From: Sulfurimonas sp. HSL3-2
Lineage (GTDB): Bacteria > Campylobacterota > Campylobacteria > Campylobacterales > Sulfurimonadaceae
Direction of reading: 5' to 3'
Assembly: GCF_039645965.1 (NCBI RefSeq)
Contig: NZ_CP147917.1
Location: forward strand, 1,364,001 to 1,428,000
DNA length: 64,000 nt
The notes under the pieces: generated by a model
Seen by the model: the letters and a program-made list of their open reading frames with translations, nothing else
Told to the model about the DNA's origin: nothing
The model's database searches: none
Made by a program: the position numbers and the translations under genes
In this document: positions 7,397-20,698 of the stretch, piece after piece
Numbering within the stretch: position 1 is the stretch's first letter
Layout of the letters: each line of letters starts with the position of its first letter

Positions 7397-8047
7397 TCAC
7401 TCTTTGGTGATAGGTTCTGTTATCTTAAGTTTTTCCAAAGATTCAACAAGTTTGTAAATAGTATTTGATGGATTGTCATTAAATGGATTAGAACTTCCAT
7501 TTATATCTATAAAATGTTTAATTAAATTTTTTGATCTTTTAATTGCTTCACTTTGCTTAGATTTAACTATTTCATAAATAAATTCATTATTTTTTTCATA
7601 GTCAATTAAAGTTTTAAGTTTTTTATTTAATTGGAGTCGATTAATATGTGCTGTCTGTTCTATAAAATGAAGTAATATCCATAGTTCATAAGCTTCATTT
7701 GCATAGGCAACATTAATATTTAAAGCTTTTGCACTTGCGATAGCTCCATTAAACTCTGATTTTGAATAACTATCTTTATCAATGACAATCCACTTCTCAT
7801 CGAAATTAGAATCTTTTAATAAGTGATTTTTTATTGCTTCAAGAACTTTCATTGGATTTGTTCCAATATTCGTTGCAAAAGTAACTTTGCCTCTAAGCCT
7901 ATAATCTTTTATCATTTTTGTAAAATAAAATCTTGAAGACTTTGTATCTTCACAAGCTATAAGAACTCTTTTTGAGATACTTTTTGTTTTTTTAATAGTT
8001 CTTTTTCTTTGAGCTTTTGCTATCTTATGTCTATCTTCAGTTCCCAT
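7397..8047 (-). CDS. rloB: RloB-like protein (AbiLii-type defence partner)
   Basis: RloB-family protein of 216 residues, paired with the AAA ATPase just upstream. A basic N-terminus (1-27) is followed by RVLIACEDTKSSRFYF, with acidic Glu33, and by WIVIDKDSY, with Asp90 and Asp92. This E...DxD layout resembles TOPRIM-like nucleases. RloA/RloB were named as restriction-linked genes in Campylobacter jejuni, and the same pair is listed as the abortive-infection system AbiL. Inference: the pair senses a phage and the RloB part acts as the toxic nuclease. Its start overlaps the ATPase end by 11 bp. Codon use is much more AT-rich than the neighbours. Confidence 0.82.
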   Translation of the reverse strand: MGTEDRHKIAKAQRKRTIKKTKSISKRVLIACEDTKSSRFYFTKMIKDYRLRGKVTFATNIGTNPMKVLEAIKNHLLKDSNFDEKWIVIDKDSYSKSEFNGAIASAKALNINVAYANEAYELWILLHFIEQTAHINRLQLNKKLKTLIDYEKNNEFIYEIVKSKQSEAIKRSKNLIKHFIDINGSSNPFNDNPSNTIYKLVESLEKLKITEPITKE

Positions 8048-9311
8048 TATCTATACTCTCTGCATATAAATTATAGATATGTGGAACTCCACCAAACTTA
8101 CCTTCTAAGTAATTTTTTTCAAGAGAAGTGTCTTTTCTAGCTCCAAAATCTATTAAAGAAAAAATCTCACTTTCACCATATATATTTTTTTCTACAAACC
8201 AAATTTGGTCTCTACGAAATAATTTATGTGTTAGTAAATTTGTATCATGTGTTGCAAAAATTAATTGCGCATTATTTGGATTAGTTTCTTTAGAATTAAA
8301 TAGTTTTATAATAAATTCAGTCATTTGTGTATGAAAACTATTATCTAATTCATCAATAACTAATATTTCACCATTCTCAAGAGTTTCAACAATTGGACCA
8401 GCAAGTAATAAAAACTTTTTTGTACCCGTTGATTCTTTTTTTAATTTAAATTCAATATCTTTGATATACTCATTTTTCTCATTATACTGCATATGTTTGG
8501 TTATTATCTCTGATTGAGTAATCTTACTTTTTTCTGCTTTATCATCTTTGATCATTTTTTGTATAAAAGAAGGAACTTCTTCATACTCCACATCTCTTAT
8601 TTTCATTTCTACATCTTTTATGCCCATATCAACTGATAGAAGTAATTGAAGAATTTTATATTTACTTTCTGAATTACTAAGCATATCATGCGTATAATGC
8701 TCAAATTTATTTTTATCAACATTTGATGTAATATTAAATTGCTTAAACCAATTACTTATATCATTGGATATATCACCATTAAATTGTGCTACCACAGATA
8801 AAAAAAGCGCATTTACTCTTGTTTTATTCTCTTTTACAATAAGGCGACCTTCAGAAAAAGCTGTTGATAAATCAAATTCTTGTCCAGTTCTAATAAATAA
8901 TTTTGTTTCTCTAATATTTGGGGTATAAAAGAGCCATTCATCATGCACAAGGTTATTATCTAATCTAAAGCCATATCTATATTTTATTTTATTGTGTACA
9001 AATGTTGCTTCAAAAAGAGAAGGTTGATTTTCAGTATGAGAATTTAGTTCAAATGATTCTATACCAATTGTGTCATTTTGTTTATATTCAGTTGCCGAAT
9101 TTTCAATAAAATGTCTCATAAAATTCATTGCATTTAATAAATTACTTTTTCCACTCGCATTAGGACCATAAATTACAGCTGATTTTAACAAAGTTTTTTT
9201 GCCATCATCAAAAATATTTTCAGAATGGTCTTTTATCGCTGTGGCTTCCATTGTAAAAGTTATAGAATCTTTAATAGATCTATAATTTTCAACAGTAAAA
9301 TCAATTAACAT
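8037..9311 (-). CDS. rloA: AAA15-family ATPase, RloA/AbiLi-like
   Basis: SMC/OLD-like ATPase of 424 residues. It starts with the AAA15 hallmark FTVENYRSIKD, followed by Walker A GPNASGKSN (49-57), and ends with Walker B ILVIDELDNSFH and an H-loop FATHDTNLL. The large central insert is typical of this family. It is expected to be the sensor/motor half of an anti-phage pair with RloB. No restriction-modification genes flank it here, unlike in C. jejuni. The gene is AT-rich, suggesting horizontal arrival. Confidence 0.85.
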   Translation of the reverse strand: MLIDFTVENYRSIKDSITFTMEATAIKDHSENIFDDGKKTLLKSAVIYGPNASGKSNLLNAMNFMRHFIENSATEYKQNDTIGIESFELNSHTENQPSLFEATFVHNKIKYRYGFRLDNNLVHDEWLFYTPNIRETKLFIRTGQEFDLSTAFSEGRLIVKENKTRVNALFLSVVAQFNGDISNDISNWFKQFNITSNVDKNKFEHYTHDMLSNSESKYKILQLLLSVDMGIKDVEMKIRDVEYEEVPSFIQKMIKDDKAEKSKITQSEIITKHMQYNEKNEYIKDIEFKLKKESTGTKKFLLLAGPIVETLENGEILVIDELDNSFHTQMTEFIIKLFNSKETNPNNAQLIFATHDTNLLTHKLFRRDQIWFVEKNIYGESEIFSLIDFGARKDTSLEKNYLEGKFGGVPHIYNLYAESIDNGN

Positions 9312-9574: not shown

Positions 9575-9587
9575 AAAAATAAACTAC

Positions 9588-11345
9588 CTAGAGAGCTTCT
9601 AGGTGTTTCATGAACTCTGTAGGTTCTTTGTAGCCTGTTACTGTATTGCTTTGACGGACATTGCCATCTTTGTCTATGAAGATGACGACCGGAGGTCCGA
9701 ATACTCCGTATCTTTTAGACATCGCTTTTTGTGCATCCGTGTTTGCACTCAGGTCTGCACGAAGAAGGACGAACTCTTTCATCTTAGCGACTACGGCTTT
9801 GTCTTTGAATGTGATCTCGTCGAACTCTTTACATGCCGTACACCAAGAAGCGGAAAAGTCCAAGATCACTTTTTTGCCTTTTGCTTTCGCCAGTTCGGCA
9901 TCAAGGTCATTTAGATTTGTCACCACTTTGAACTTGAGTTCATCGGTCTTGGTTTGTACCTCGCTTGCAACCGCTTTTGAAGTGAACTGATCCAGCGGAG
10001 AAAGTATGCTTTTCGAACCGCTGATCGCGCCGATGAAAAGAATGACACCGTAAAGCATGATGATGACCGCGAATATTTTCGAGACACTGTTCTCTCTCAT
10101 ACCGTTTTCAACTTGCAGCGGTTCTAACGCTCCAAACTGCACACCCGTAGCGATAGCCAGCATTGCCCATAGTATCATGATGATACCTTCGTCTAAGACA
10201 CGTGAGACCATCCAGATAGCGACACCGATCATCATCAGACCGAAGATAGTTTTTACCATATCCATCCAGCCGCCGGGACGAGGCATGAACTTCCCTGCCC
10301 CTGTTCCTACGGCGATGAGCGGCAGACCCATACCTATGGAGAGCATAAAGAGTGCTGCACCGCCAAGAAGTGCGTCACCCGTCTGACCGATGTAGACCAA
10401 TGCACCTGCAAGCGGAGCTGCGACACAAGGTCCTACGATCAGTGCAGATAAGAAGCCCATGATCGCAACACCGATGATACCGCCTTTGTTGCTTGTAGCA
10501 CTGCTTACTCTTGACTGGATGAAGTTTGGCACCTGCAGTTCGTAAACGTCGAACATAGATAGAGACAGAAGTACGAAGATCCCTGCAAACGAGTAGATGA
10601 CCCAAGGAGTCTGAAGCGCTGCTTGAAGATTTGCTCCAAAAAGACCTGCCAAGACTCCTGCGATCGTGTAGGCGACAGACATAGCCAAGACATAAACGAT
10701 AGATAGGAAAAATGCGCGTTTCGTCGTAAGCCCTTCCCCTTGTGAGACGATGACCGATGAGATGATAGGGATCATCGGGAACACACACGGAGTCATAGAA
10801 AGTAGAAGTCCAAAGATCAAGAACATTCCAAGAGTAAGCAGGATGTTTCCTGATTTTAACGTATTTGCGATGCTGTCAGTCTCTGACAGCTGCATATCTG
10901 CAGGTTTTGAAGCTTTTTCTGAAACTATCTTAGATGTGTCGACACTTAAAGTGTATGAATGTTGCTGAGGCTCGTAACAAAGACCCTTTTGCGAGCACCC
11001 CTGAAATGCCAGATCAAGATCGACTTTTGCCGTCTCGTCTGAGCTTGAAAGTTTTTTTAGCTTTACCAAAACATGCGGAGATGTCGTAAAGACTTTGTCC
11101 TCTTCATGCATGACGCTTTGTGGAAGTTTTATAGATTCTATTGCTACTGCGTCATTCTTTTTTAAAGAGATCTTTAATTCATTTTCATAAAGGTAAATAT
11201 CTTTTCCAAGAGCTATATCGACGACTATATTTGAGTTCTCATCTACGGTCGCGGATGGCTTAAATGCCTCATCAGGCATAAGAAAAGCCCTCGCCTGGGC
11301 AAGTGTAAAGACACTAAGCAGGGCTAAAAGTATCAGTTTTTTCAT
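9588..11345 (-). CDS. dsbD: Thiol:disulfide interchange protein DsbD
   Basis: Inner-membrane reductant conduit of 585 residues carrying electrons from cytoplasmic thioredoxin to periplasmic thiol proteins. There is a signal peptide (1-20), then an N-terminal alpha domain with two cysteines (GCSQKGLC near residue 120), eight membrane segments (about 165-440) with one Cys in a MTPCVFP-like helix and another in GPCVAAP, and a C-terminal thioredoxin domain with SWCTAC. All three redox domains look intact. It may feed the MsrA-Trx-MsrB and TlpA-like proteins coded elsewhere in this window if these are periplasmic. Confidence 0.95.
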   Translation of the reverse strand: MKKLILLALLSVFTLAQARAFLMPDEAFKPSATVDENSNIVVDIALGKDIYLYENELKISLKKNDAVAIESIKLPQSVMHEEDKVFTTSPHVLVKLKKLSSSDETAKVDLDLAFQGCSQKGLCYEPQQHSYTLSVDTSKIVSEKASKPADMQLSETDSIANTLKSGNILLTLGMFLIFGLLLSMTPCVFPMIPIISSVIVSQGEGLTTKRAFFLSIVYVLAMSVAYTIAGVLAGLFGANLQAALQTPWVIYSFAGIFVLLSLSMFDVYELQVPNFIQSRVSSATSNKGGIIGVAIMGFLSALIVGPCVAAPLAGALVYIGQTGDALLGGAALFMLSIGMGLPLIAVGTGAGKFMPRPGGWMDMVKTIFGLMMIGVAIWMVSRVLDEGIIMILWAMLAIATGVQFGALEPLQVENGMRENSVSKIFAVIIMLYGVILFIGAISGSKSILSPLDQFTSKAVASEVQTKTDELKFKVVTNLNDLDAELAKAKGKKVILDFSASWCTACKEFDEITFKDKAVVAKMKEFVLLRADLSANTDAQKAMSKRYGVFGPPVVIFIDKDGNVRQSNTVTGYKEPTEFMKHLEAL

Positions 11346-11401: not shown

Positions 11402-13474
11402 CTAACGGAGTTGCTTCATTTTTTGCTGAATTTTAAAGTATGCGTCCCCATCTAGTAACATCTGCGGTACCGTGACGGCTGTCGTCTTCTCATCGAGTCT
11501 TTTTAGGCGGTTTGTCTCAAAAGAGGGTTCCTCTATCGAACTGAACCCGTCAGGTTTTTTGCCTGTAAGTGTTACTATACGCGAGACTGCATCGGTAAAA
11601 GCATTTTTATTTTCACAGTACTTAAACGCTCCTTCATAACAAAACGGCATCACTCTTCCCGCATATCTCAGCTTTTTGTCTTGAAAGACTTTTACGTCTG
11701 ACGCATCTACATGTATGCTGCCAACAGGAGTGTATGCATTGTAGATGACGGCTTTTAGCTTAGCGCCTTTGGCATTTTTTATATCGTAGTTTATGGCTTC
11801 ATAGGAGGCTAAGAAAAGGATCGTCTCAGCATCCGAGTCCTGCATCACTATATCCATGCCGTGGTCACTTCGTCTGCTCTCGTATGTCCCAAAAAGGTAT
11901 ACTTTCGTGTCTTTTGTCATCAGTTGTTTCAGACTCTCATCTTCTAACTGTTTTACAGGTTTTTTCATATTTACCTGCATATCCACCTGACCGTAGTTGT
12001 TAATATACTCGACCTCTATCCTGTATCTTTTTCCCGGTGCAAATTTATACGTAAAACTTGTGGAACGGTCTCCGTCATAGACGACCTCATCATTGATAAT
12101 GATCTTGATCTTCGACCAGCTTATACTTACATCAAACTCATACGTAAGCGGTCTTGCAAAAGCAAAGTCGCCTATCCAGTACCCTACAAAATTATCGGCC
12201 GGTATACCGTGAAACTTGTTGTGTGAGTAATCTAGAGAGACCTTTGTGACGATCTCGCTGTATTTTACTTTAGAAACATCGAACTTGTCCATATAGTAGG
12301 CTTGAAATGCGTTGCTCGGCACATCCGCTTCGTTTACATGTAAGACATCGAACCAGCGCATCCCTTTGTAAGGGTAAAAAGGGTCGGCTACTCTTTTTGT
12401 AAGTTCCTCTTTCTGTACTTTTATGGCTTCTATCGTTGCATTGATCTCTTGGTATTTTTTTGCATCAAGCTGTAACTCTGGAACCGTTACCGAGCCGACT
12501 CTTTTATCTTCACTTTTTGTAAAGCCTGTTATCTTTTTACCCAGCAGTTTTTGCATCCATTCGCCAAGACTCGTGAACTCTTTAAAACTTGGACAGTGTA
12601 TGCCCATAGGCGCTTGATTCACACACTCCATCACCCTTGGAAACACCGCATGTACTGAGGGCATCTTCTCAATGCGCAGCAATTTCACCTCACCGTCAAA
12701 ATGAAACTTAGTCCCTATTCCGCTGTACACGACGGCTTTTGTGTTCGAGCCTTTTATATTCTTTATCTTGTATGCTGCAGTACCCGTGGAGTTTATAAAG
12801 AGGATGGAAGGTTTTGCCGAGTCTTTTAGGTTGAGCGTCTTGTCTGTGTACTGCGTCGTAAAGTAGAGGTTGTAGTCTTCCTCTTTGACTATCTTCCTCA
12901 GCTCCTGTGTCAGATTCTCATCCGAGATGACAGGTACATAGTCACTTATCCCGACATGCATCATCGTGACCGATACATCCGAGTTATAGACATAGAGTTC
13001 CAGATGATGTACACCGCTTGAAAACTCGATATCCAGCTTTTTTTTCATAGCTTTGACAGACTTTAGGAGTTTTCCGTCAAGATATATCTCCACCCTAGCC
13101 CAGTGGTTGTCGATGTATATCTCTTTTTTAACAGGAAGAAGAGCGACGAAGTAGCCGTCCATCTTTATATAGAAGTCTTTGTTTTTATCGTTGTAGAATT
13201 TTTTTGCGAAATAGTCTATATCTACTTTCGTATCGATCTTCGGTGCGAATTTTTTATAGTCGTAGATATCTACATTGTGATACGTGATATAAAACGCATT
13301 GAGAGGATACTCGAATATTTTTGGAAGAGAGGTCTTAAAGATCAAAAGTCCGACTATCAAAGCGGCGATGGATATGAGAGGGATGAACCCTCTATATATG
13401 ACAAAAAACCGTACCAATACGATCATTGCCATCAAAAAAAGCAAAAGATACACTACAACGTCAAATACCAACAT
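11402..13474 (-). CDS. Membrane-anchored protein with two duplicated PA14-like units
   Basis: No family name recognised. The 690 residues start with two hydrophobic helices (about 5-27 and 30-47), then a large soluble part, probably outside the inner membrane. It is an internal tandem duplication. A PA14-like beta region with GVHHLELYVYNSD (about 88-180) and a unit at 200-345 are followed by a second PA14-like region ending YRIEVEYINNYGQVDM (415-505) and a matching unit at 523-682. Paired blocks include YKIKNIKGSNTKAVVYSGIG versus YDIKNAKGAKLKAVIYNAYT, GKKITGF versus GKKPDGF, and VTVPELQLDAKKY versus VTVPQMLLDGDAY. The shared cysteines suggest disulfides. A carbohydrate or surface-binding role is only a guess. 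Confidence 0.7.
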   Translation of the reverse strand: MLVFDVVVYLLLFLMAMIVLVRFFVIYRGFIPLISIAALIVGLLIFKTSLPKIFEYPLNAFYITYHNVDIYDYKKFAPKIDTKVDIDYFAKKFYNDKNKDFYIKMDGYFVALLPVKKEIYIDNHWARVEIYLDGKLLKSVKAMKKKLDIEFSSGVHHLELYVYNSDVSVTMMHVGISDYVPVISDENLTQELRKIVKEEDYNLYFTTQYTDKTLNLKDSAKPSILFINSTGTAAYKIKNIKGSNTKAVVYSGIGTKFHFDGEVKLLRIEKMPSVHAVFPRVMECVNQAPMGIHCPSFKEFTSLGEWMQKLLGKKITGFTKSEDKRVGSVTVPELQLDAKKYQEINATIEAIKVQKEELTKRVADPFYPYKGMRWFDVLHVNEADVPSNAFQAYYMDKFDVSKVKYSEIVTKVSLDYSHNKFHGIPADNFVGYWIGDFAFARPLTYEFDVSISWSKIKIIINDEVVYDGDRSTSFTYKFAPGKRYRIEVEYINNYGQVDMQVNMKKPVKQLEDESLKQLMTKDTKVYLFGTYESRRSDHGMDIVMQDSDAETILFLASYEAINYDIKNAKGAKLKAVIYNAYTPVGSIHVDASDVKVFQDKKLRYAGRVMPFCYEGAFKYCENKNAFTDAVSRIVTLTGKKPDGFSSIEEPSFETNRLKRLDEKTTAVTVPQMLLDGDAYFKIQQKMKQLR

Positions 13475-13530: not shown

Positions 13531-15006
13531 CTAAAAAGTTTTATTTAACCTCTTTTGAACCTCGCTAAATATCCTTTCGACATCCGAAGAGTTTTTAGTC
13601 CCTATCTTGCTAAATATCAAAGTCGCTATCCAAGATGCGGCAAAGCCCGGCAGTATCTCATACAGATCAAAGATCCCGCCGTGAAGCTGTTTATATACTA
13701 TCACCGTTACAGAGCCTGCTATCATCCCCGCGATAGCTCCGTTTTTTGTTATGTTGTGATTGTACAAAGAGAGTATGACAACAGGTCCAAAAGCCGCACC
13801 GAACCCTGCCCATGCATACGCCACAAGTTTTAGTACGCTTGAGTTCTCATCTGTCGAGAGATACCACGCGATGACGGCAATAGCCATAACAGTCATGCGC
13901 CCTACCCATACAAGTTCCTTATCTGTTGCGTCTTTTCTAAGGATGGCATGGTAGATATCTCTTGTGAGTACTGAAGAGGATACAAGCAGCTGTGAATCGA
14001 TCGTACTCATAATAGCCGCCAAGATGGCCGCAAGTAAAAAGCCGGCGATCCAAGGATTGAAAAGCAGTTGAGAGAGAGTGATAAATATCTTCTCACTGTC
14101 TTTAAGGTCGACTCCGTGTGAGACGACATATGCAAGACCAAAAAATCCGACTGCCAGTGAGCCGATGATCGAGAGTATCATCCATGTCATACCTATGGTC
14201 TTCGCGCGGTTCATCTCATCTTCATGACGGATCGACATAAAGCGTACGAGTATGTGAGGCTGACCGAAGTAGCCAAGTCCCCAGGCCATTAAAGAGAGTA
14301 TCCCTATAAATGACGTTCCGCTGACTATATCAAGGTTGGCAGGATCGACTGACTCTATGATCTTTAAGCCTGCACTCACTCCTCCGAGATCATATATGAC
14401 GACCAGCGGTACTATGACGAGTGCCAGCATCATAAGTATCCCCTGTATGAAGTCTGTCCAGCTGACCGCATTGTACCCGCCTAAGAATGTATATGATACG
14501 ATGATAAAACTCCCTATGATAAGAGCTGTGGAATAATCAAGATGAAATGTAGCCTCAAAAAGTTTAGCGCCTCCGACAAGCCCCGAAGAGGTGTAAAGCG
14601 TGTAGAAGATCAGGATGACGACCGCCGTCACGACACGAAGAGTATTCCCTTTGTCTTCAAAACGGTTTGAAAAGTAATCTGGTATGGTGATGGCATCATC
14701 AAGATGATGCGTATAGACACGAAGCGGTTTTGCCACATAATGCCAGTTGATAAATGCTCCTAAGATAAGTCCGACAGCGATCCAGCTCCCGACTATCCCC
14801 TGCGTATACATCATGCCCGGAAGCCCTAAAAGAAGCCATCCGCTCATATCTGACGCTCCCGCACTCAGAGCCGTTACTCCCGGTCCAAGACTTCTTCCTC
14901 CAAGTACAAAATCGCTTAAGTCATTAGTCTTAAAGTAAAAATATACTCCAATAGCTACCATGACTACCATATACGCTACGAACGAGACTATCAAGGGTGT
15001 CTGCAT
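13531..15006 (-). CDS. putP: Sodium/proline symporter PutP
   Basis: Sodium:solute symporter of 491 residues with about 13 membrane helices. Near the N-terminus LGGRSLGPGVTALSAGASDMSGW matches the conserved TM2 Na+/proline site, and the mid-protein GYFGQPHILVRFM block is typical of PutP. It imports proline with Na+ for the PutA enzyme. Its ATG overlaps the putA stop by one base (TAATG), so it is translated by coupling from the putA message. Confidence 0.95.
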   Translation of the reverse strand: MQTPLIVSFVAYMVVMVAIGVYFYFKTNDLSDFVLGGRSLGPGVTALSAGASDMSGWLLLGLPGMMYTQGIVGSWIAVGLILGAFINWHYVAKPLRVYTHHLDDAITIPDYFSNRFEDKGNTLRVVTAVVILIFYTLYTSSGLVGGAKLFEATFHLDYSTALIIGSFIIVSYTFLGGYNAVSWTDFIQGILMMLALVIVPLVVIYDLGGVSAGLKIIESVDPANLDIVSGTSFIGILSLMAWGLGYFGQPHILVRFMSIRHEDEMNRAKTIGMTWMILSIIGSLAVGFFGLAYVVSHGVDLKDSEKIFITLSQLLFNPWIAGFLLAAILAAIMSTIDSQLLVSSSVLTRDIYHAILRKDATDKELVWVGRMTVMAIAVIAWYLSTDENSSVLKLVAYAWAGFGAAFGPVVILSLYNHNITKNGAIAGMIAGSVTVIVYKQLHGGIFDLYEILPGFAASWIATLIFSKIGTKNSSDVERIFSEVQKRLNKTF

Positions 15007-18000
15007 TATTTTTCTCCTTTTTCTTTTAGACCGCGAAGTCCTAGATTCCCATATCTATGGTAACTGTTCGAGACACTTTGTTCGACAAAGTAGTGCATAA
15101 GCTCGATACGTCCGTGAACGACAAACGGGTCTCTTGCGATGTAGACCGCATCATCGGCGACCGCTTCATAAATGAACTCCGAAACGTTTTGAGGTCTTAA
15201 GAAGCGCACTCTCTGCACCTCTTTCATGGACTCTGCCAAAGTGCTTTCATCTTCTAAGGCAAAACTGTCATTTTCATCGAGTAAAACTGCTTTTTTCTCA
15301 TGCAGATAATCCAATGACTCGCTCTTATAATGCATAGGGATCGAGATATGCACACGTGCTCCGACTATCTTTGCTGCTGCTATGGATGCCAGCATCTCAA
15401 ACAGGTTATCATCCTCCATAAATCTAAAAAGAACACTCTTTACACTCAGATACCTTATGACATTGCTCTCGCCTCTGATATTTGAATAATCATGTTCTTT
15501 GTTAAACTCGACATCCAGCCAGTACTTGAACTCGCCTATCGCCTTGCGCATCATCTCAAGACTAAATGCTATCTTGTTCTCCTCTTCAAAGAGGGGCTGC
15601 AGTCTGTCCATATAGAGGTTTAAAGCGTTAGAACTCTCAAAACTGATATCCATAAACTGAGATACGTAGTTAAACCCTCCCGCTTTTTTTCCGCTTCCTA
15701 TCGCTGATTTTCCCATACCGCCAAAAGGCTGTCTGCGGACTATTGCACCTGTCGTCATACGGTTTATATAAAGGTTGCCGGCATGAAGTTTCTCTTTAAA
15801 TATCTCCACTTCACGCTCATCCAGACTCTCTATTCCCGAAGTCAGTCCGTATCCCGTAGAGTTTACGATCTCTATCGCCTCTTCAAGATCCTCCGCACAC
15901 ATCACGCTTAGTACGGGACCGAAAAGTTCATTGAGATGACAGAAGTCTCCTTTTGCCGTACCGTACCTGATGGATGGCTTCAGCATATACGGGTTGTCGT
16001 CTGCATAAGAAGGCTTAAGCGCCCACTCCTCATCATTATCGAGATGATGCAGCGCTTTTTCCAAGTTTCCTGAAGGCTTGTTTGAAAGTGTCCCTATCTT
16101 GTTTTGCAGTTCCCAGACCGAGCCTACATGTAAGGATGTCGCCGCATCGACAAGCATCTTTTTAAAGTTCTCATCCTCATACACTTCACGTTCAAGTACA
16201 AGCAACGACGTAGCAGAACATTTCTGCCCCGAGTTGTTAAAAGCAGATGCCGCGACATTTTTGACCGCCTGGTCTCTGTCTGCAAGCGCTGTCACGATAG
16301 TCGCATCTTTACCGCCTGTCTCAGCGCTAAGATGGATATCCGGACGGGCTTTTATCATCTGCTGTGCGGTTGATTCTCCTCCTGTGAAGATAACAAAGTC
16401 GATCCCCTTGTCTTTTATAAGGTGCTCGCCTGCAGCATCTGCGCTGCATGGAACGAACTGCAGGGTGTTTTTACTCACTCCCGCGTCCCAAAAACATTGA
16501 CACAGTCTATACCCGCACAGAACTGCATCCGATGAGGGTTTAAGTATTACCGTGTTTCCCGCAGCCAACGCCGCAGCTACGCCTCCCGTAGGTATGGCGA
16601 TGGGAAAGTTCCAAGGGCTTACCACAAGCCCTACCCCTTTTCCCTCGGTTTTGATCCCGTCCAGAGCGTTCAATCTTTCTACGCTGTATGGATAGAAGTT
16701 TAAAAAGTCTATCGCTTCGCTGACCTCGACATCGGTCTCGGAGAACACCTTTCCCACCTCTGCCGCGGCAACACCGATAAGATCCGCTCTTGCTTTTTTA
16801 AACTCATCGGCGACATTCATAAGTATCTTTTGGCGCTCTTTAGAACTCAGCTCTCTCCAACCGTCAGGATCTGCTTTTGCTACCGAGACCGCTTTGTTCA
16901 GGTCATCTTTTAAAGCCTTTGTATAGCTTCCCACCATCACCTTTTGATGAAACTGAGACTTATCGATAACCTCGACACGCTCTTCTGAAGAGATCTCCTC
17001 ACCGCTAATGACGGGCGCCGCATGAAAACCGCCGCTTTTTGAGATGTTTTTCCATTTATCGCGTATAGATTCCGCCCATCTTATGTTTTGCGGCAGTGCA
17101 AAGTCCGTATCGCTCTCATTTTTAAACTTATACCCTTGAGCCTCGATCCGAGGTGTTATGAGTTCAGCATTTCTGTCTTGCATGCGAAACGGCTCTAAAG
17201 CGATGCTTGGCAAAACCTCTACGGCATCATCATAACTTTTAAGAAGCGTCTTCCAAGCCGGAGTGTCTACGCGAAGTCCGAAACTGTGGCGCAGAAAGTT
17301 TTCTTCTGCCGTGTTTTCGTCAAAACGCCTGACAAGATAGGCAATAGCGTTTGTAAATGTCTTCGCCGTTGCTATGGGAGCATATAAGATGACATTGAGC
17401 CCCTCTTTTTTCAGGACCTGATATGCCGTTTCACTCATCCCCTCCAGCATCTCTGCAGTGTAATACTTTTCTACTCCGCGCTCACGCGCTAAAAGCATAC
17501 CAAGCGCATGGTCGAAAAGATTATGCGAAGCGATACCCACATGCACGTAAGGAGTGACCTTTTCATCTATGAGATAGTCCATCAGGAGTTTAAAGTTCGC
17601 ATCGGTCTCAGCTTTGTTCAGGTACGTCACGCACGGCCATCCGCGAAGACTCGCTTCTGTAAGTTCCATCTCCTGATTTGCACCCTTGACTAAACGGATC
17701 TTGATGGGGACTCCGCCTTTGTTTATCCTCGTCTTCGCCCATTTGACAAGCTTTTGCAGGTTTTTCATAGTGTCGGGAAGATAGGCTTGCAGGACTATTC
17801 CCGCTTCAAGTCCGTAAAACTCCTCTTTTGAAAGAGTCTGCATAAATGCATCGACGGTTATGTTGATATCGCGGTACTCCTCCATATCAAGGTTTACAAA
17901 CTTATGCTGCTCCTTGCCGTGTGCATCGGTGAACTTGTTGTTCATCGCCGCTTTATAGATCGGTTCTAGTCTGCGTGAGATCTCATCCACACTCCACTCA

Positions 18001-18584
18001 TGTGCTACAGGGACTATCTGAGAGAAGATGGTGGAAATCTTTATGGAGATATAGTCTATATTTGGATTTTGCAGGGCTTTTATATATTTTTCTATTCTCT
18101 CCTGCGCCTCTTTTTCGCCTAAGACCATCTCGCCTATGACATTGATGTTTACTCTGGTATGCTCTTTACGTCTTTTATCCAGATGTCTGTTAAGCGGAGC
18201 ATCTTCACCCTTTATGACGATGCTGCTTATATCGTTACGAAGATACTTTATAAAAAGTTCGACCGAAATATCGGGCATATAGATACCGATATGTCTAAAT
18301 GACCATACAAGGAGCTGTTCAAACTCTGTAAAAATATCCGTGTTCTCATATTTTTTAAAGATGTATTCCAACTGATCTGCGATACGTTTAGGATCGTGTG
18401 CACGAAAACTTTGATCTAAAAGCTCTATAAGGAAGACTTTATTCATTGGATCTTTGAGCATTCTCTGCATTATCTCATGAAATTTTTTCTCGCTGCTTAT
18501 CCTGTTTTTTTCTATCTCAAGCTGCCAGTTCCTGGCTACACCTTTCGCTGATTCAAATGTTCTCTTTTGTATTTGCATTGCCAT
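15006..18584 (-). CDS. putA: Bifunctional proline dehydrogenase / P5C dehydrogenase PutA
   Basis: Two-step proline oxidation to glutamate in one 1192-residue protein. The N-terminal half is the FAD proline dehydrogenase barrel ([16 protein letters not shown], and [10 protein letters not shown]). The C-terminal half is an aldehyde dehydrogenase with AETGGKDA (general-base Glu) and [11 protein letters not shown] (catalytic Cys), followed by an extra domain of about 200 residues. No ribbon-helix-helix DNA-binding domain is present, so it is unlikely to be its own repressor as in E. coli. The start at 18584 (MAMQIQKR) is chosen because AGGAGG lies just upstream; an open frame to 18650 has no such site. 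Confidence 0.95.
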
Positions 18585-18751
18585 ACCCTTTCTCCTCCTA
18601 TGATAACAAATTAGATTTAAATCAAACTTGCACATCCCCTCGGCCTCCATCTGCCAAACAGCATAAGTTTAGATTGCAACCTGCAGATTTAAGCGCAATA
18701 TTAGTAATATTTATCTACTCTACATGTATTAAGTTATTTAGGAAGATGATA

Positions 18752-20698
18752 ATGTCAAACAGACTAGAATTTGAAGACTCTCCATATCTTCAGCAGCACA
18801 AGAACAATCCCATAGACTGGTACCCTTGGTGTGATGAAGCTTTTAAAAAAGCAGAAGATGAGCATAAACCCATATTTATCTCTATAGGCTACAGCAGCTG
18901 CCACTGGTGTCACGTGATGGAAAAAGAGGTCTTTGAAGATAAAAAGATAGCAACGTTTGTAAACGAACATTTCGTCTGTATAAAGGTCGACCGCGAAGAG
19001 CGCCCCGATATCGATAAACACTACCAAGAGGTGTATCAGCTTCTAAACCGCCGCGCAGGCGGGTGGCCGACATCTATCTTTGCAACGCCTCAGAACAAGC
19101 CGTTCTTTGCAGGAACATATATCCCCCTGCATAACAAAGAGGGTCATGTAAACATGATGGGCTTTAGTGAGATAACAAAGATCATCGCAGAAAAAGTCGC
19201 GCAAAAAGATGAGCAGATATTTAAAAATGCCGATGAGATAGTAAGTTTTTTAAAGCCGCCGGCACATCCGAAAGAGGCGACAAAACTTACAGAGGATATC
19301 CACAAGAACTTTATCGTCCAGGCGAACAGAAACTTTGAAAAAGTATACGGCGGATTTTCTGTGGCACCGAAGTTTCCGCATACCTCTACGCTTAGCACAC
19401 TTCTAAACATCTCTACGCTTTATGAGAACAAAGAGATAAAACAGATGGTCACTTTCACGCTTGACAATATGATAAAAGGCGGGATGTACGACCTTGTAGA
19501 CGGAGGCTTTTGCAGATACTCCACCGATGATAAATGGCTTGTCCCGCACTTTGAGAAGATGACCTATGACAACGCCCTGCTTTGTGAACTCTACACAAAA
19601 GCCTACCTTGCATACAAAGATGAAACCTACTTACATATAGCCAAACAGACAGCAGAGTTTATGATAAACTTTATGCAAAAAGACGATCTTTTTTACTCGG
19701 CAAGCGATGCGGACAGCGATGAGGGAGAAGGAACTTACTTCACCTATACGAAAGATGAAGTCGAAACCGCACTCATCATAAACGGTTACGAAAATGACGA
19801 GATATCGGTGATATTAAAGTTCTTACATGTAAGCGAGAACGGCAACTTTGAAGAGCGCAATATCATCAGGTTTGAAGAGAGTGTCAAACCCGACTGGTAC
19901 GACAACGTCATGCATATTCTAAGTTCGTTAAGAGAGCATAGAAAATATCCTTTTATCGACAAAAAAGTACAGACCTCATGGAATGCCATGATGATAAAAG
20001 CGCTTTTCACTCTTGGGGAGATCGAAAGTAAATACACCGACATCGCAAAAAGATCTCTTGACGCTCTTTTAAAAGCGATGTATCTAAACGGACAGCTTTA
20101 CCACTCGGCACTTATCCATAAAGAGCCGAAAGTCGGCGCGTTCTTGGAAGACTATGCTTTTATGGGGATCGCTCTTATATCGGCTTATGAACACACGGGC
20201 GACGAGTTTGACCTGATAACCGCGCAAAAATTTGCGAACAAGGCATTAGAAGAATTTTACGACAACGGAAGATGGTTCTTTAGCACGGGAGAGTTCACGA
20301 CACAAGCCGAGGTAAGTGACAATACTTACCCCTCGACTGTAAGCGTAATGATAGACCTGCTGCTCTCGCTTGGCTCTTTGGTCGAAGAGAAATACACCGT
20401 TTTCGCATTTAAGACCCTAGAGTACAACTCTTATGACTTGGGAAGAAAACCGATCTATTCTCCGTATATGTTAGATCAGATGCTGAGATATCTCAAAGGC
20501 GACAGGATCATTAAATCCACCATTGAAAACCTGCGATCAAACGCCAAGGCAATAGCAGAGGTCAAATACCCGTACCTCTTAAAACAGCCAAGTACAAATA
20601 GCGACTATCTGATATGCGGTGCGAACAGCTGTTTTGCGAATACCGCCGATATCGGTCAGATAGATGAGATCATAAGCAACTCTATAACAGAGGAATAG
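18752..20698 (+). CDS. Thioredoxin-domain protein of the DUF255/YyaL family
   Basis: Protein of 648 residues. The N-terminal 160 residues are a thioredoxin-like DUF255 domain with SCHWCHVM (CxxC); the rest is an alpha/alpha-barrel like those of glycoside-processing epimerases ([34 protein letters not shown]). The family occurs in all domains of life (human SPATA20) and its function is unproven. The start at 18752 is preferred because AGGAAG sits about 6 bases upstream; the earlier in-frame start would run into the putA promoter region. It is 6 bp from the next gene, forming an operon with a signalling protein and PPK2. Confidence 0.88.

Follow-up and report, generated by a model that had tools for sequence, protein, structure and literature searches.

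A membrane-anchored bacterial protein with tandem PA14-like and betaglycan orphan-domain-like units

The gene termed X here lies in a window of 64,000 nucleotides from Sulfurimonas sp. HSL3-2, which is the whole stretch of DNA that was analysed. Its product is best explained as an inner-membrane, periplasmic tandem of two units, each made of a PA14 and an orphan-type domain, which arose by duplication and serves in capture or docking; we assign this explanation as a whole a probability of about 0.55. Its structural core is firmer: the anatomy of the protein, together with a fold of the second copy that resembles the orphan domain of betaglycan and endoglin, is very likely to be correct.

Anatomy of the protein and its duplicated unit

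The reading frame of gene X starts with ATG and spans exactly 11402-13474 on the minus strand. The domain borders given below were placed by the analyst from short motifs.

11402..13474, minus strand: gene X, membrane-anchored 690-aa protein with two tandem PA14-like plus orphan-domain-like units (ORF list, hydropathy, model, dN/dS)
13340..13471, minus strand: two N-terminal membrane helices, aa 2-26 and 28-45 (hydropathy and model, with a block pLDDT of 52-71 here)
12935..13303, minus strand: PA14-like domain, copy 1, aa 58-180, a divergent copy (self-alignment, family alignment, beta-rich in the model)
12389..12928, minus strand: orphan-domain-like domain, copy 1, aa 183-362, with Cys284 and Cys294 (self-alignment, tree; only 8.1 bits against the profile without Campylobacterota rows)
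11951..12319, minus strand: PA14-like domain, copy 2, aa 386-508 (VIA-align; Pfam PA14 E 0.0011, below the cut-off)
11405..11950, minus strand: orphan-domain-like domain, copy 2, termed C2, aa 509-690 (model of the domain alone, fold matches, profile)
11615..11641, minus strand: codons of the cysteine pair Cys612-Cys620 (both columns invariant in unit alignments)

The sequence-only reading had described a tandem duplication of a two-part unit, and this is borne out by each of three comparisons. Residues 80-345 and 410-690 align with a local BLOSUM62 score of 193, which none of 1000 shuffles reaches (mean 36.9, sd 6.0, maximum 74), BLASTP between the halves 61-380 and 381-690 gives E 4e-15 with identity in 76 of 298 columns, and phmmer between the two halves gives 1.4e-18. 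The two motif pairs that had been taken as aligned are located accordingly, with GKKITGF at 312-318 in the first copy and GKKPDGF at 638-644 in the second, and with VTVPELQLDA at 329-338 and VTVPQMLLDG at 667-676. A search of the gene's own genome for a second gene copy found none. The two anchoring helices of the earlier reading also hold, as hydropathy above 1.5 (19-residue windows) is confined to residues 1-54 and the model places both helices there. From the basic residues between these helices, the secreted-looking homologues and the neighbouring genes, we infer that the bulk of the protein lies in the periplasm, tied to the inner membrane.

Gene X is under purifying selection, yet it evolves faster than its neighbour dsbD. 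Against the orthologue at L057, dN is 0.37 and dS 1.80, giving a dN/dS of about 0.2 from the one computable pair, both pairs with L058 having yielded saturated dS and no value. For dsbD, the same L057 pairing gives a dN of 0.08 and a dS of 0.96.

The full-length model has a mean pLDDT of 83.8 and a pTM of 0.62 (18-row alignment), and in the models the second copy consists of a PA14 fold and an orphan-domain-like fold. Residues of about 381-507 align to PA14-containing entries with Z 8.9-11.8 and an rmsd of 2.3-3.4 Å over 108-124 residues (VIA-align, among the matches listed). Copy 2 has the PA14 beta-sandwich fold, and copy 1 is barely probed by the structure matches; it is the second copy that gives substance to the PA14-like parts seen from the sequence. 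The beta-sandwich is shared, through single-domain matches, with the PA14 domain (PF07691) of the Marinomonas primoryensis adhesin and the Flo/Epa adhesins. Among the best 50 matches listed, both PA14 copies are spanned only by 6qe7 and 6qdi, at an rmsd of 26-27 Å; 6qe7 is a double-PA14 anti-sigma factor and is among the closest known PA14 systems. The Pfam PA14 model scores gene X at 19.2 bits, below its gathering cut-off of 24, and matches 5 of the 18 members of set A4 at E <= 1 (best 1.6e-4). A protein outside the family, L059 (1865-2545, minus strand), is a 227-aa membrane protein with PA14 above the Pfam cut-off and a DD motif, and it adjoins ORFs that by eye resemble glycosyltransferases.

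For the second part of the unit, no Pfam or NCBIfam model is above its cut-off in gene X or the scanned relatives, in agreement with the earlier statement that no family is recognised for the whole. DUF4249 (PF14054) was rejected for gene X: at 23.3 bits it falls below its cut-off of 28.5, its match at 454-594 straddles the domain border and overlaps the start of C2, and it matches 3 of the 18 A4 members at E <= 1. Matches to Clp, diadenosine-tetraphosphatase and V-ATPase F models are at chance level. BiPBP_C (E 5.1e-4), an EMC7 beta-sandwich model (7e-4) and PKD (0.0052) each match single members of the 18 and were taken as a general beta-sandwich likeness. The two columns of the cysteine pair are invariant in unit alignments of 16, 15 and 12 rows, and Cys612 and Cys620 likely form a disulfide. 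Several relatives in which the orphan-type domain stands alone (e.g. L068, L069, L074) do not have the pair, nor do L099 and L100.

The second domain and the orphan domain of betaglycan and endoglin

The part of the unit that the sequence-only reading had called unknown is so in the sense that no family model recognises it; by fold and by profile, it resembles the betaglycan/endoglin orphan domain. With the full-length model, PA14 matches took up the fold search and no orphan domain is among those listed; C2 was therefore folded alone, resulting in a pLDDT of 91.9 and a pTM of 0.90 (28-row alignment). In a Foldseek search of this model against the PDB (350,542 chains), betaglycan or endoglin occupies each of ranks 1-9 (E 0.008-0.27, probability from 1.00 down to 0.28), followed by TagF at E 0.44 and a probability of 0.04; no match reaches E <= 0.001, and TMq is 0.23-0.43. 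VIA-align, which re-examines Foldseek's matches and by its own account does not treat a Z near 8 as decisive by itself, aligns eight betaglycan/endoglin entries at Z 8.4-6.4 (rmsd 2.9-3.9 Å, 111-123 residues, identity 7-11%), with the next entry at Z 3.9. All eight entries with Z >= 5 among those listed are betaglycan or endoglin, and 10 chains are counted at that threshold. Judging by the aligned ranges, the first orphan subdomain would be the one matched in 7lbg, 9fdy and 6mzp, and the second that in 9b9f, 6mzn and 9fk5, the other two rows being endoglin.

Sequence profiles point to the same protein. The best match of profiles A8, A9, A10 and A11 (20, 28, 16 and 24 rows) in the PDB (177,635 sequences) is zebrafish betaglycan (TGF-beta receptor III), at E 0.15, 0.0028, 7.4e-5 and 9.9e-5, respectively. 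The last two are whole-sequence values, for which the best single stretch has an i-Evalue of 0.028 (A10) or 0.051 (A11) and the second stretch 68 or more. The A10 and A11 matches take in 37-55% of the profile, at its N-terminal end; the VVLxLxSxxPVxW motif of the orphan-type domain aligns at two sites in the betaglycan chain, consistent with its two orphan subdomains. Rat betaglycan (9fdy) is matched at E 0.21 (A10) and 0.091 (A11), and endoglin is not among the PDB sequence matches of these two profiles. Matches to ribosomal uL13 (E 0.84 with A9, 0.14 with A10) and fibronectin (E 1.1) were taken as chance. The 16-row proteobacterial profile, which has no Campylobacterota rows, finds C2 at E 3.4e-15, with no match among 2000 shuffles of the gene X protein, and gene X is thereby tied to that profile's match to betaglycan.

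True homology of the orphan-type domain to that of betaglycan and endoglin is probable, because the sequence and structure searches rank the same protein first, though each score is moderate; the weak single-stretch E-values lower our confidence in it and make convergence less improbable. The fold is common to the gene X domain and the betaglycan (TGFBR3)/endoglin orphan domain (6mzn, 6mzp, 9b9f, 9fk5, 9fdy, 7lbg, 5i04, 5hzw), and both systems hold two domain copies in one membrane-anchored protein. Unlike its animal counterparts, gene X is bacterial, has a PA14 domain between the copies and is anchored at its N-terminus. No zona pellucida (ZP) domain is found in gene X among Pfam matches up to E 10, a list from which weak matches may be filtered. 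With no ZP match, and with the orphan-type domain as its sole shared part, gene X is not filed in the betaglycan/endoglin family. In passages of the published accounts, the orphan domain of these receptors is described as being without homology to any known protein, and no paper on bacterial relatives was found in the literature searched, which omits most subscription journals.

Relatives, duplication history and neighbouring genes

Within the order, 18 of 398 genomes have a match to a profile of the units; in four of them (G053, G062, G084, G306) the matches are weak and partial and were left out of the family. Searching the phylum with the second domain yields 7 of 298 genomes and adds three with single-unit genes, and two of seven other genomes of the same genus have gene X. 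A contig scan with the 690-aa protein as query yielded no relatives; 75 candidate stretches from a scan with A6 reduced to four loci, of which two lie on the same contigs as G296 and G396. Outside the phylum, contig scanning leads to Croceicoccus sediminis and a Burkholderiales MAG. In Pseudomonadota, matches occur in 9 of 398 genomes, covering the whole unit in two (one being Croceicoccus, the centre of the search) and only the second domain in seven, and the second domain as query matches in 10 of 299 genomes, mostly through rows already in the profile. For one genome match, L064, which contains two in-frame TGA codons, the open part alone was used.

The double-unit form also occurs in another family of the order, with about 694 aa and a hydrophobic N-terminus (L042, L044; L043 is cut by a contig end). 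Single-unit homologues, a prospect raised by the sequence-only reading, are present in both Campylobacterales and Pseudomonadota (e.g. L050, L054, L055, L056, L063 of Croceicoccus sediminis, L067, L097). They have one PA14-like and one orphan-type domain with the same Cys pair, in proteins of 341-362 aa, or of 497-637 aa with an N-terminal extension. By eye they begin with a signal peptide or a lipoprotein-like start and look secreted, as opposed to the two helices of gene X; also unlike gene X, the 12 single-unit tree rows carry an additional Cys two positions ahead of the pair and another near the C-terminus. In the proteobacterial L068-L075 and L098, the profile finds the orphan-type domain, with no PA14 match. 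Its partners there include EF-hands (L071; L072 below the cut-off) and LprI (L073; L075 below the cut-off), and L098 has a tail that by eye resembles a sorting signal. Three single-unit genes with an N-terminal extension, at L049, L052 and L053, share a conserved cluster with ORFs that by eye resemble ketosynthases and acyl carriers.

In a 23-row maximum-likelihood tree built from the second domain, first copies (98/97), second copies (98/95) and singles (99/99) fall on separate branch sides. This fits one old duplication, with the singles as outgroup, which may have preceded either the split of the two double-unit families or a transfer between them. In a 25-row tree of the PA14 domains, where L047 drew a long-branch warning, first copies are together at 97/97, and second copies are mixed with singles, requiring two changes; L045, L046, L051, L052, L059, L060, L099 and L100 were left out of the trees. 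Two orthologues of the same genus (511 and 504 aa) end right after the second PA14 domain and have no C2, and in L047, from another genus, a short piece alone remains after that domain. For these short forms, loss of the last domain is the simpler reading, because their first copies group with those of the full-length forms in the tree.

Two adjacent single-unit genes in G474 (L056, 6707-8788, minus strand) represent a second local duplication in the family. In G013, a 76-aa, remnant-like ORF (L060, 6208-6435) retains only the LFLSSYAAINWIINNP motif of the orphan-type domain. The single-unit L055 has no match in plasmid or phage records, and L074 has none in plasmid records. L096 gives 118 plasmid matches, none over 80% of the protein, the ten listed spanning residues 6-175, its LprI part.

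On the minus strand, gene X is flanked as follows.

15006..18578, minus strand: putA, proline dehydrogenase/glutamate-semialdehyde dehydrogenase (start taken from homologues; the ORF is listed to 18650)
13531..15006, minus strand: putP, sodium/proline symporter, next upstream of X across a 56-bp gap (TIGR02121, E 2.5e-210)
9588..11345, minus strand: dsbD, periplasmic disulfide reductase, next downstream of X across a 56-bp gap (NF001419, E 1.2e-153)
9586..9604, minus strand: terminator-like hairpin at the dsbD end (pattern match only)

A search for minus-strand terminator-like sites found none in the putP-X or X-dsbD gaps, those of the region lying inside coding sequence or at the dsbD end. 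From the spacing, X is likely co-transcribed with putA, putP and dsbD. The order putA-putP-X-dsbD is found in three genomes (that of the window, G003, G004), and X adjoins putA-putP in all three genomes of the genus that have it. In G001, G002, G006 and G007, dsbD is present, and tblastn detects neither putA nor putP nor X on the stretches of 5.8-12 kb read (that of G002 ends at a contig end). The ORF between dsbD and the next conserved gene in G001 is one that we take to be a monofunctional transglycosylase. Outside the genus, homologues of gene X have other neighbours.

Downstream of dsbD, the window has an RloB (PF13707, E 2.6e-30) and AAA_21 ATPase pair at 7397-9311 (minus strand), and at the same site G004 has a different pair, AAA_21 and DUF4276 (L058, 3727-5474, minus strand); this looks like a variable defence-type site. 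The listed ORFs of putA and a divergent gene (18557-20698) overlap at 18557-18740. Since homologues start about 25 and 62-66 residues later, the true starts of the two genes probably do not overlap.

Possible role and competing readings

In the proposed mechanism, the two N-terminal helices of X would form an anchor, followed by two units that each combine a PA14-type beta-sandwich with the fold of the betaglycan/endoglin orphan subdomains, for which model, fold search and profile make common descent the most likely origin. Gene X would derive from duplication of a single-unit form, the trees placing second copies nearer to singles and suggesting that first copies have diverged. The protein would then act as a tethered capture or docking protein, in which a protein or peptide partner would bind a beta-sandwich surface of the orphan-type domain, as in its animal counterparts, and the PA14-type domain makes a second contact via a site other than the classical calcium/sugar site; the two units may provide two-point binding or a rigid spacer. 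Such a partner is the first guess because animal orphan domains bind protein ligands (BMP9/10, TGF-beta), as stated in passages of PMC11865472 and PMC3275592. The capture role, drawn by analogy, is tentative and stands distinctly below an even chance. The likely co-transcription with putA, putP and dsbD weakly hints at a role in the envelope connected with the use of amino acids or peptides.

Other readings interpret the two domains differently. The likeness to betaglycan and endoglin could be convergence, consisting of a similar layout of two small domains and a chance motif, as the moderate structural scores (Z 6.4-8.4, TMq <= 0.43), the best single-stretch i-Evalue of 0.028 and a Campylobacterota-only profile that has betaglycan first at E 0.86, next to fibronectin at 1.1, would allow. 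This is unlikely: the same protein comes first in both searches, and its E-value falls from 0.15 to 7e-5 as proteobacterial rows are added and then used alone, whereas the same 16 sequences reversed reach E 0.039 at best (Sec13) with betaglycan not found, and a viral structure library gives nothing below E 0.1 for the C2 model (best 0.11, probability 0.60). Alternatively, X may be a glycan-binding PA14 protein, such as an adhesin or a cell-wall glycan sensor, with the second domain as a spacer. Sugar-binding proteins are among the PA14 fold matches (6m8m, 6x8a, Flo and Epa adhesins), and single-unit members conserve the loop motifs FHxI, YWVG and NNWHT. The gene X copies are partly without these motifs, NNWHT being replaced by NNYGQ in copy 2 and NSDVS in copy 1. 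Sugar-binding PA14 domains of the Flo/Epa/Marinomonas (MpAFP) type have a DD pair (cis-peptide), which we take to be their calcium/sugar motif. Of the 27 aligned PA14-like domains in the family, none carries this pair at the position corresponding to SDDG in L059 (Pfam PA14 E 1.1e-6). Glycan binding via a DD site thus appears unlikely for gene X, the glycan hint of the sequence-only reading is weakened, and so is the spacer reading, which we regard as improbable.

Two further readings turn on the surroundings and the fate of the gene. As a partner of its neighbours, X could be a periplasmic accessory that binds proline or peptides for PutP, or a substrate of DsbD that bears a disulfide, which would suit the short, terminator-free gaps on both sides, the shared gene order in G003 and G004 and the Cys pair in each orphan-type domain. 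The homologues that lie among other genes, and the four genomes with dsbD and none of putA, putP and X on the stretches read, make this quite improbable. X could also be an accessory envelope gene on its way out, with no important role. Its scattered occurrence (in 18 of the order's 398 genomes, four weakly), the two orthologues that lack C2, the remnant-like ORF in G013 and a faster change than that of dsbD are all in keeping with decay; the dN/dS of about 0.2 from the one computable pair, the intact reading frames and the full double-unit form in another family (L042, L044) argue against it, and we hold it very improbable.

There is a broader possibility, which we place a little short of an even chance: the orphan domain of the vertebrate TGF-beta co-receptors would share descent with an old ligand-capturing domain of bacterial envelopes, which occurs alone, with PA14 or with other partners, and X would be a co-receptor-like tandem of it. 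Should the homology be true, a domain described as unrelated to any known protein would gain bacterial relatives, and with them a testable origin, simple versions to study and a deeper alignment for reading the conserved surface of the orphan domain. It would also define a domain missed by Pfam and NCBIfam in the proteobacterial proteins scanned. In one genome of Pseudomonadota (G592), there are four matches to the orphan-type domain (L084, L087, L088, L089), three of them close together on one contig.
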